Part shown: positions 18,628-22,301 of the stretch, one piece after another | How the letters are laid out: every line of letters begins with the position of its first letter | How positions within the stretch are numbered: position 1 is the first letter of the stretch | NCBI GenBank assembly: GCA_002721465.1 | Contig: PBKO01000011.1 | Coordinates: 6,332 to 60,955 of the forward strand | Source of the DNA: Gammaproteobacteria bacterium | Lineage (GTDB): Bacteria > Pseudomonadota > Gammaproteobacteria > Magnimaribacterales > D2472 | DNA: 54,624 nucleotides | Direction of reading: 5' to 3' | The notes under the pieces: model-generated | Seen by the model: the letters and a program-made list of their open reading frames with translations, nothing else | Database searches by the model: none | What the model was told of the DNA's origin: nothing | Program-made: the position numbers and the translations under genes

Positions 18628-21054
18628 ATGTCAAAGATAAAAAGAAATTTTCTTATTGCAATTCTTGTTGCTTTTCAGAGTCACATTAAGAGTGATCTCG
18701 TAAATGAGGAAATTTTAAAAATTAATAAATTAGACAATGCTGTCTCATGTTTTATTTATGAGCCATATCTTGGAATTGTAAATAATATTGAAGATCTTGA
18801 AATTAAATCTGAGAAATTTGAAATTACTGATGATGAAATTCTCATCCTTAATGGAGACGTTGAATTAGATTTTCCTGATGGTTTGTTGAATTCACAAAAA
18901 GTTAGAGTAGACAAAGACAGAGGATATGTAGATTTTAAAAGGCAGGGTCAAATATTTTTTAAAGATTATTTTTTTAAAGCTGAAGAAGGAACTTTCAGCA
19001 GAGATGATGGTTATATTAATTTAAAAAATGGGGAAGCATTTTTAAATTCAAGAAATTTAATCATAAGCTTTGAAGAGCTTGATGGGGACTTGGATGATAA
19101 AATTAATCTTTCTAATGTTCAAATGACTTCGTGCTTAGACTCAACAAATGGTTGGGCTATTAATGCTGGCAAAGTATCACTTGATGAATCAACAAAAAGA
19201 GGAATTGCAAGAAACGTAAGAATAAAGATTCTTGATAAGTCCCTAATCAAATTACCTGTCCTTCCTTTTGCTACATCTAATGAGAATATGTCAGGATTTT
19301 TAGAGCCTACACTATCATACTCATCAGATGGATTAGATTTTGTAATTCCTTATTACAAAACTATATCGAAAAGAAGTGATATAACTATTGCTGCCAGAAA
19401 TATCTCTGAAAGAGGTTCTGGAATTGAAACAAATTACAGAAATCTGCATGGTAAGAAGAACAACCTTCGTAATATAGATCTAATTTATTTTAATAGTGAT
19501 AAAGAACATAAAAAAATGTACCCAAGTCAATCTGATGCAAGATGGGCTTTTAGCGTAAAAGATTCATATTTAGACAAAAAAACCCTATGGATAGACTTAG
19601 ATTGGTCAAAGGCTTCGGATGATTTGGTTTTGAGAGACATATCTGGTGAAATAACTTCGATTGGTTCCCAAAGAGAGCAAAATTTGAGACAAAACATTTC
19701 AATTAACGGTATATACAAAAATGTTGAATTTAAAATTTCTCACAATGGATTTCAGAGCCTTAATCCAATACTAACAAATGGGTACAAAACATTACCATCA
19801 ATAAACATAAAATATTATAAAAGTCTTAAAGGATTTTCTATTGAAGAGAACTTAAATTTGTCTGTATTTAAAGCGGATGATGTTCATGGCTTTTATGGGT
19901 ATCAAAATAAAAGTAATCAGTTTCCATTTTTTATAGATCCTGTAGAAGGATCAAGGGTATTCTCTGATTTCAAAATTTATAAAAGTTTTAACTTAAACAC
20001 ATTAAATATCTATTCTGGATTGGGATTAAAAAGTATTAACTATAATCTTGATAATTCACAGCAATCTCAATCAGTAAGTATTCCTAATTTAATTGTTGAC
20101 ATCAATACTATATTTTATAAGAAGAATAAGATGGATATTCATTTATTGAAGCCAAGATTAATCATTGGATATGTAGGATATAAAAATCAAGATTCAAATC
20201 CAATTTTTGACACAAATAAAATTTCGATGATTAATCAATTATCTAATATAAATCGGTTTTCTGGGATGGACAGAATTGGTGACCAAAAATTTTATACTTT
20301 AAATTTGGAATATAAAAAAAGAATGATGCATATGGATAAAATATCGTTATCTGTTTCAAAAAAGTTTTACCTTGAGGATAGAAAGGTATTTCTTGATAGC
20401 ATGCATATGTCAAATGATCCTATGAGCCAAATGAATATGGCTATGATGAATATGTCATCTCAAATGAATGGAATGATGGATATGTCTCAAATGGGTGGAA
20501 TGATGAAGATGCCAATGGATGAAGGGCCAGTTATGATAATGGGCAAGTGGATGCCTAGTATGAAAACAATGATTATGTCGTATACAAGCTATATTGAGGA
20601 ATCAAATAAGATCCCAGTGGGGGGCATTACTATTAATCATAAATTTAAGTCTGCTTCCATGGGTTATGCGAAGAGATACACAAGAATGTCAGGCGACTTT
20701 GGAGTTACTTTGGATTATTCAGAATTATTTACAGACATCAAAATAAAAAATAAAGTTAGCCTAATTGCGAAAATTAAATATGACGATGAAGCAAGCAAAA
20801 AAATTGAATCAATTTTTGGTATTGGTTATGAAAATTGTTGTATTGCAGTGAGGTTAACCACTTCTGACAAAAATCTCTCAAAATATTTAGATAATTTTGA
20901 ATCAACTTCATATGATTTTTTAAATGAAGCATGGAATAATGTTATAGAAATTGAAAATAAGAGTAGAGTTAATTTTCAATTTGAATTTAAAGGTTTAAAC
21001 TCAACTTTTGAAAAGGCAGGAAAAGCATTAAATAACTCTATTCTAAAATATTAA
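18628..21054 (+). CDS. lptD: LPS-assembly protein LptD, with Met-rich insertion
   Basis: OstA-like N-terminal domain ('GDVELDFPDGLLNSQKVRVDKDRGYVDFKRQGQIFFKDYFFKAEEGTFSRDDGYINLKNGEA'), 'MTSCLDSTNGWAI', C-terminal 'YENCCIAVRL' CC pair; followed by surA-pdxA-rsmA. Confidence 0.92.
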   Translation: MSKIKRNFLIAILVAFQSHIKSDLVNEEILKINKLDNAVSCFIYEPYLGIVNNIEDLEIKSEKFEITDDEILILNGDVELDFPDGLLNSQKVRVDKDRGYVDFKRQGQIFFKDYFFKAEEGTFSRDDGYINLKNGEAFLNSRNLIISFEELDGDLDDKINLSNVQMTSCLDSTNGWAINAGKVSLDESTKRGIARNVRIKILDKSLIKLPVLPFATSNENMSGFLEPTLSYSSDGLDFVIPYYKTISKRSDITIAARNISERGSGIETNYRNLHGKKNNLRNIDLIYFNSDKEHKKMYPSQSDARWAFSVKDSYLDKKTLWIDLDWSKASDDLVLRDISGEITSIGSQREQNLRQNISINGIYKNVEFKISHNGFQSLNPILTNGYKTLPSINIKYYKSLKGFSIEENLNLSVFKADDVHGFYGYQNKSNQFPFFIDPVEGSRVFSDFKIYKSFNLNTLNIYSGLGLKSINYNLDNSQQSQSVSIPNLIVDINTIFYKKNKMDIHLLKPRLIIGYVGYKNQDSNPIFDTNKISMINQLSNINRFSGMDRIGDQKFYTLNLEYKKRMMHMDKISLSVSKKFYLEDRKVFLDSMHMSNDPMSQMNMAMMNMSSQMNGMMDMSQMGGMMKMPMDEGPVMIMGKWMPSMKTMIMSYTSYIEESNKIPVGGITINHKFKSASMGYAKRYTRMSGDFGVTLDYSELFTDIKIKNKVSLIAKIKYDDEASKKIESIFGIGYENCCIAVRLTTSDKNLSKYLDNFESTSYDFLNEAWNNVIEIENKSRVNFQFEFKGLNSTFEKAGKALNNSILKY
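20401..20580 (+). repeat. Met-rich coding segment in lptD containing three degenerate ~9-11 aa repeats (SQMNMAMMNMS / SQMNGMMDM / SQMGGMMKM)
   Basis: Codon-by-codon reading of 20401-20580: 23 of 60 codons are ATG. Repeat units at 20425-20457, 20458-20484 and 20485-20511. Confidence 0.9.
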
Positions 21055-21056
21055 TT

Positions 21057-22301
21057 ATGAATAAAATTTTAATATCATTTATCTATTTAGTATCTACTTT
21101 ACAAATATTTGCTGAGACAGTGATACTCGATCGCATTGCTATTATTGTCGATGACGGTGTTGTTATGGAATCGCAAATCAAAAGTAGCATTGTCAAAATC
21201 AATCAAAGATATGAAGATCAAAATATACCTAAGCCTCCATTGGATGTTGTTGAAGAAAATGTTAAAGAACAATTAATAATAGAAGAGTTGCAACTTCAAC
21301 TTGCAGATAGAGCTGGAGTAAGAATCAGTGATGCTGAGTTGAATGTCACAGTAGAAAGATTGGCTAGAAATAATCAAATGAGCTTAGAAGAGTTCATTTC
21401 ATTTATTGAAAATAGTGGAGATTCCTACGAAGACTTGAGAGATGATATTCGAAAAGAAATGAGGATTCAGAGAATCCAAAGAGGACGGGTAAACTCAACA
21501 ATCGATATCACTGAAAAAGAATTTGATGCATTTTTAGCTACAGATGATTCTCTTGATGCCCTTCAACCTGAACTATTAGTTAGACAAATCTTGGTGAAAG
21601 ATAAAAGTACTGCTGACAATGTCATTGATCAGATAAATAAAAACATTGAATTTTCTGATTTGGCAAAACAATACTCACTAAGTGCAACTGCTCAAAATGG
21701 TGGACTTATGTCCTGGAAAAGACTTAATGAAATGCCGGTGTTATATGAGAATGCTCTTGATAAAAAATCTGTGGGTTATATTTCTGAGCCACTAGAAAGT
21801 GGATCAGGATTTCATATTTTAAAACTCGAAGATAAAAAAGGTGATTTTGTGCAATTTCAAGATCAATGGAAATCAAGACATATTCTTTTAATGCCCACTG
21901 CAATTAGAGACGATGAAGAAACTGAAAGACTTTTAAATGAAATTAGAGACAGAATTATCTCTGGTGAAGACTTTGGTGTTCTAGCAGATGAATTTTCAGA
22001 AGATCCAGGTTCAGCAAAGCTTGGAGGTGATCTAGGTTGGTTAGGCCAAGGAGTCCTAGCAGACAAATTTGAAGAAACAATGCTTGCCTCAGAAATTAAT
22101 GAGATTTCTGAAGTATTTAAAACAGAATTTGGTTATCACTTTCTTGAAGTTTTAGAAAAAAGGAATCATGAGCTTACAAATGAATTAATTGAGGAGAGAG
22201 CATATCAAGTATTATATTCAAGAAAATTTGATGAAGAGCTAGATAATACTCTAAGAACAATGCGTGCTGAGGCTTTTGTTGAATTCAAAGAATTAGATTG
22301 A
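21057..22301 (+). CDS. surA: Periplasmic chaperone/peptidyl-prolyl isomerase SurA
   Basis: N-terminal signal, 'ILDRIAIIVDDGVVMESQI', two parvulin domains ('SLSATAQNGGLMSWKRLNEMP', 'FSEDPGSAKLGGDLGWLGQG'). Confidence 0.95.
   Translation: MNKILISFIYLVSTLQIFAETVILDRIAIIVDDGVVMESQIKSSIVKINQRYEDQNIPKPPLDVVEENVKEQLIIEELQLQLADRAGVRISDAELNVTVERLARNNQMSLEEFISFIENSGDSYEDLRDDIRKEMRIQRIQRGRVNSTIDITEKEFDAFLATDDSLDALQPELLVRQILVKDKSTADNVIDQINKNIEFSDLAKQYSLSATAQNGGLMSWKRLNEMPVLYENALDKKSVGYISEPLESGSGFHILKLEDKKGDFVQFQDQWKSRHILLMPTAIRDDEETERLLNEIRDRIISGEDFGVLADEFSEDPGSAKLGGDLGWLGQGVLADKFEETMLASEINEISEVFKTEFGYHFLEVLEKRNHELTNELIEERAYQVLYSRKFDEELDNTLRTMRAEAFVEFKELD

Follow-up and report, generated by a model that had tools for sequence, protein, structure and literature searches.

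The methionine-rich segment of the LPS-assembly outer-membrane protein LptD described here is a selected, lineage-specific elaboration of this protein. SAR86 is a marine group that is abundant but uncultured. In one of its lineages, LptD has gained stretches of methionine that resemble copper sites, as has its partner LptE in some species, and to judge from their sequences, this essential machine for LPS delivery may also handle metal at the cell surface. The analysis started from a stretch of 54,624 nucleotides (the window; contig PBKO01000011.1, positions 6,332 to 60,955), which contains the gene together with its ordinary neighbor:

18628-21054, plus strand: lptD, encoding the LPS-assembly outer-membrane protein of 808 amino acids (Pfam and PDB profile)
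20836-20841, plus strand: conserved Cys-Cys pair on the periplasmic side, Cys737-Cys738, which served to anchor the topology (alignment)
21057-22301, plus strand: surA, a chaperone gene directly 3' of lptD (SurA_N, 3.2e-31)

The initial annotation had named the gene lptD and considered its four disulfide-relevant cysteines to be retained, and both statements were borne out. The product matches Pfam PF04453 (1.9e-27), LptD structures are the sole matches of the family profile in the PDB (best 1.3e-69 for 8h1r), and Cys41, Cys169, Cys737, and Cys738, i.e., the residues that make the two inter-domain disulfides of LptD, are invariant across 40 family members. The adjacency of lptD and surA is the usual context of this gene; pdxA, rsmA, and apaH, assigned from a reading of the translations, lie 3' of surA, and no copper gene adjoins lptD. 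The protein, which is under purifying selection, is 97% identical in two SAR86 cluster genomes, and its own genome also encodes the partner LptE, flanked by genes that by eye resemble leuS and holA. Viral contigs provided no LptD relatives for deepening the alignment. In one congener (G006, L027), lptD is distributed over two frames of 469 and 329 amino acids with a break near residue 470, which is either real or an assembly error; the second piece bears the Met-rich loop.

Within positions 20401-20580, 23 of the 60 codons in the frame of lptD are ATG (translation MHMSNDPMSQMNMAMMNMSSQMNGMMDMSQMGGMMKMPMDEGPVMIMGKWMPSMKTMIMS), which confirms the earlier count and frame apart from a residue string that had omitted the first M. 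Given a background of 2.4% Met in the window's open reading frames of 150 codons or more, the probability of 23 or more Met among 60 residues is 4e-22 per stretch, and the second-densest 60-residue stretch in these long frames has 6 Met. The segment consists of two parts, loop 9 with 17 Met and strands 18-19 plus their periplasmic turn with 6 Met, the first of which comprises the following features:

20392-20526, plus strand: Met-rich extracellular loop 9, residues 589-633, with 17 Met among 45 residues (strand count and profile alignment)
20443-20511, plus strand: tandem repeat within loop 9 with a 27-bp (9-codon) unit in 2.4 copies (repeat analysis)

The internal repeat recognized in the initial annotation corresponds to this 27-bp period. 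Loop 9 contains seven MxM and eight MxxM motifs, a cluster whose exposure is predicted by homology. The own genome contains 40 occurrences of the motif MxMxM. Among the sites whose frame was checked, no long reading frame apart from LptD has a Met-dense stretch; in a few other long frames the motif stands by itself with 3-5 Met nearby, and the remaining sites are located in short or out-of-frame stretches. A presumed second Met-rich gene on contig 14 was rejected, since its MxMxM cluster is an out-of-frame reading of a TonB-receptor-like gene. This gene (L123:612-2861, minus strand) has His/Asp/Glu-rich stretches (HEDDHDEDEHEDEHH) and perhaps encodes a zinc receptor.

The topology was derived from a backward count of the strands that starts at the Cys737-Cys738 turn. 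We take this turn to be periplasmic as in LptD generally, and the count places residues 589-633 on the outside between strands 17 and 18. Profile alignment to the LptDs of Klebsiella and Pseudomonas shows the loop to follow the equivalent conserved strand. The assignment relies on homology and strand parity because the AlphaFold model built with seven sequences (pLDDT 29, pTM 0.25) was unusable and therefore discarded. By both lines of argument the Met-rich loop is a predicted enlarged extracellular loop 9. The earlier view of an enlarged barrel loop behind a YYFEDR-like strand thus holds for residues 589-633, but its extension to the whole of 20401-20580 does not, as Met 636-650 belong to strands and a turn. 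In E. coli and Pseudomonas, loop 9 of the equivalent gene product likewise stands after a conserved strand ending YYF/FYL-x-D/E-R; it is exposed in E. coli, where it is bound by antibody on cells (PMC6592684), and it is lengthened in P. aeruginosa as well. In contrast to the SAR86 lineage, loop 9 of Klebsiella and P. aeruginosa is not rich in Met and is not accompanied by a Met stripe in the barrel.

The Met-rich loop is graded across the sister genera and absent from the basal genera and from two other SAR86 families. Each of the genus's 25 full-length LptDs possesses it, with 24-49 residues and 6-18 Met, and pooled over 1015 residues the Met content of loop 9 is 36%, compared with 1.3-2.9% elsewhere in these proteins. 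With respect to the sister genera, the number of loop Met ranges from 1-11 in g13 and 4-8 in g12 to 3 in g2 and g16 and 0 in g3; in g14, g15, g17, and g18 the loop is short and contains no more than one Met, and no Met-rich loop was found at the position of loop 9 in the two other SAR86 families compared. Based on 56 near-relative pairs, which are not mutually independent and several of which are at near-saturated synonymous distances, the dN/dS ratio of the loop is about 0.20-0.23, compared with 0.10 for strands 18-19 and 0.15 for the remainder of LptD; a value of about 0.2 indicates that the loop is selected. The alignment of orthologs proposed in the initial annotation identified the Met as the better-conserved loop positions, with 88% of loop Met conserved pairwise versus 80% of the non-Met loop positions and 79% of the Met elsewhere. 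Lys and Ile are scarce in the loop, Leu, Ile, and Phe are rare, there are 0-2 His and no Cys, and the AT-rich composition of the genome (32% GC) would not drive the loop toward Met.

Loop length changes in steps of 27-bp, 9-codon units, the sequence of which depends on the lineage. The combination of these repeat-unit changes with the conserved Met and the low dN/dS indicates that slippage supplies the variation and that selection holds Met at about 36%. A one-off expansion by slippage only, missing from close relatives, had been named at the outset as the finding that would speak against a functional loop; it is ruled out because the loop is present in all 25 full-length congeners, has a dN/dS of about 0.2, and is best conserved at its Met positions. 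A neutral low-complexity expansion of a dispensable loop through replication slippage is likewise hardly credible: the tandem units in several lineages with differing unit sequences would fit, as would the E. coli loop 9 deletion, which leaves growth and the vancomycin and rifampicin MICs near wild type (PMC6592684), but such an expansion would not be kept in every full-length congener across near-saturated synonymous pairs at a dN/dS of about 0.2.

The same repeat turnover might serve to alter the surface met by phages and grazers, with Met as a by-product or an anti-adhesive residue. LptD is a phage receptor, and deletion of loop 9 from P. aeruginosa LptD results in thermosensitive plating of phage DEV (PMC12892993). 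Loop length differs by whole 27-bp units even among near relatives, and lptD of G012 (L193, G012:C2:108000-118000) shares 96-99% identity by tblastx with lptD of G008 (L022), compared with 77% in the downstream surA region, as if lptD had recently been exchanged; an assembly chimera is the alternative. However, the loop dN/dS of about 0.2 is not raised, Met positions are conserved better than their neighbors, and the co-varying barrel stripe described below would have no explanation, so that we consider a variable loop shaped by phages improbable.

Six of the 23 Met, whose location in the barrel wall was overlooked in the initial annotation, probably face the lumen and co-vary with the loop. 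They form the center of a larger sector:

20527-20595, plus strand: Met stripe, residues 634-656, comprising strands 18-19 with the periplasmic turn between them (M636, M638, M642, M645, M648, M650)
20320-20340, plus strand: turn on the periplasmic side that joins strands 16 and 17, RMMHMDK (M567, M569), part of the Met-gained sector
20188-20286, plus strand: loop 8, a lumen loop (PIFD...RFSGMDRIGD) with the lineage-specific Met 534 and 547

Relative to the loop-less genera, the genus acquired Met at 18 columns that do not belong to the loop, 10 of which fall within 92 positions around strands 16-21 (P 8e-6), or 13 if loop 8 is added (P 1.5e-7). At positions 638, 648, and 650, the residue flanked by hydrophobic neighbors in loop-less genera is K, N, S, or Y. 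These three stripe positions therefore probably lie on the lumen side, where Met replaces the polar residues of those relatives. Column 535 contains Met in most congeners and Ile in the window LptD. Outside the stripe, the genus-gained Met include codons 166, 221, 239, 502, 534, 535, and 547 (window 19123-20268) as well as codon 801 (21028-21030). Two examples are M221 and M166, the latter located shortly ahead of the jellyroll Cys. At codons 239, 535, and 801, the residues of the window LptD are V, I, and L.

The number of loop Met and the occupancy of the stripe rise and fall jointly (rho 0.85 for 46 proteins; rho 0.84 within g13), and in a tree-based comparison loop and stripe change together in nearly all pairings of supported independent comparisons. 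Because only three independent changes occur on supported branches (four on all branches), the relationship is not significant after tree correction (p 0.25), and the co-variation is therefore suggestive. It would also be expected if the loop folded into the barrel as a plug or gasket, packing its Met, chosen as a flexible and hydrophobic residue, on the stripe and on LptE and thus sealing a barrel with a small LptE. The gain of Met in loop 8, which is located in the lumen with LptE, and the LptE size of about 150-190 amino acids are in agreement with such a seal. Yet a plug would tolerate Leu, Ile, and Phe, which are rare in the loop, it would leave the periplasmic-turn Met (642, 645, 567, and 569) and the His-rich, hydrophilic LptE insert unexplained, and E. 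coli is near wild type in growth and in both MICs without loop 9 (PMC6592684). We therefore rate a plug as possible but rather unlikely.

In 71 of the 99 family genomes, LptE was identified from its location between leuS- and holA-like genes and from its sequence, the weakest matches being doubtful, and the family profile matches LptE structures (1e-4). With the Pfam LptE model, none of 27 genomes gave a match above the cut-off and 26 gave no match to the partner at all; the family-wide set was built up from the single sub-threshold match (14.7 bits), which is flanked by a leuS-like and a holA-like gene. In 10 genomes of one subclade of the genus, a Met/His insert is present in the LptE hairpin, e.g., SMKMDHSMHSNHSMHMNHSNN; inserts of this kind (MDHSMHSNHSMHMNHS-like) are located at L124:4293-4802 (minus strand) and at loci L125-L133 and L140. 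The four inserts counted contain 3-8 His. LptE of the window's species (L155) is plain, as is that of the genus's other LptE-bearing genomes outside the subclade. Nine of the 10 insert genomes are represented in the LptD tree, all of them in one clade of 11, whose two members without the insert are G033, for which no LptE was detected, and G012, which has a different type of LptE and an lptD that looks exchanged. In solved structures LptE is situated between the extracellular loops of LptD (PMC6164715), and the insert hairpin may point outward. The insert was overlooked in the initial annotation and is a new finding; as a sequence feature it appears to be the best hint for a metal rather than an oxidant sink or a phage-exposed loop.

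The explanation that we favor, albeit tentatively and at somewhat less than an even chance, is a binding surface for a soft metal of the Cu(I) type on LptDE, perhaps with a Met relay through the barrel wall. The flexible extracellular loop 9 would supply MxM and MxxM ligands and would be joined to the lumen-side Met stripe of strands 18-19, which reaches the periplasmic turn, so that a metal such as Cu(I) could be captured outside and then held or passed along the stripe. In one subclade, LptE would add a second Met/His-rich site inside the barrel. The His-bearing insert, the precise barrel positions, and the preference for Met favor soft-metal binding over the plug, phage-decoy, and oxidant-sink readings. 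Since there are points for and against metal binding, our commitment remains guarded; the loop with its signature of selection, its joint change with the stripe, and the LptE insert are observed, while lumen facing, metal binding, and any transfer are inferred from sequence features, and capture for buffering or exclusion seems more likely than a true import path. It is doubtful that LptDE moonlights as a complete outer-membrane copper path or store, with the loop outside, the stripe in the wall, a periplasmic Met turn, and the LptE site in a subclade.

Known copper proteins resemble individual parts of this arrangement. The Met-rich sequence of CueO binds Cu(I)/Ag(I) according to the title of a work cited in PMC12509749. 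The corresponding E. coli segment is similar to loop 9 in the spacing of MxM/MxxM and in Met density (14 of 45 residues versus 17 of 45), and it has the words MDHS and HMNH in common with the LptE insert. However, CueO is a periplasmic enzyme without homology to LptD, and its segment is His-rich, whereas loop 9 is almost free of His. In Ctr1, flexible extracellular Met motifs are joined to Met in the membrane part, which is reminiscent of loop 9 and the stripe, but Ctr1 is a helical eukaryotic copper importer without homology. The methionine-only MxMxxM motif of Ctr1 is described as selective for Cu(I)/Ag(I) (PMC9117721). PcoB/CopB, an outer-membrane copper channel with a disordered His/Met-rich N terminus (PMC12509749), shares with LptD an outer-membrane barrel with a disordered Met/His-bearing segment, which in PcoB serves copper handling; the PcoB segment is N-terminal, periplasmic, dominated by His, and encoded with the oxidase PcoA, whereas that of LptD is an extracellular loop. 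Searches of the loop and LptE insert peptides against plasmids and the PDB returned no copper-protein match, and one splicing-factor match was judged to reflect low complexity. A short MxHxM-type DNA pattern was uninformative, as it is present in 19 of 19 genomes searched.

With respect to the genomic background, no Cu-exporting P-type ATPase was found in 30 SAR86 genomes, compared with 14 of 14 control genomes, and no multicopper oxidase was detected in the same number of SAR86 genomes, with positive controls. Copper handling at the surface of SAR86 could matter, given the undetected exporter and oxidase; both are likewise missing from the loop-less genera and therefore cannot explain the restriction of the loop to some genera. 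MsrA is present in 30 of 30 genomes searched, mostly in two copies, and contig 16 of the own genome encodes an MsrA-thioredoxin-MsrB fusion with a signal-peptide-like start (L121:3965-5242, minus strand; predicted secreted). Together with the exposed Met cluster, these reductases would suit a sacrificial sink in which surface Met scavenge oxidants generated by sunlight. A periplasmic reductase cannot, however, get to an extracellular loop, the Msr genes are equally present in loop-less genera, and neither the precise lumen positions nor the His of LptE would be expected, which makes an oxidant sink very unlikely. Neither Msr nor copper genes separate the loop-bearing from the loop-less genera.

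LptD is an antibiotic target that is both essential and widely conserved. In the literature searched, no metal role of LptD and no pairing of "methionine-rich" with LptD was found. If LptDE did serve as a copper path or store, a metal route would be built into the essential LPS translocon, and a metal-handling LptDE would tie LPS export to the trace-metal biology of the surface ocean.
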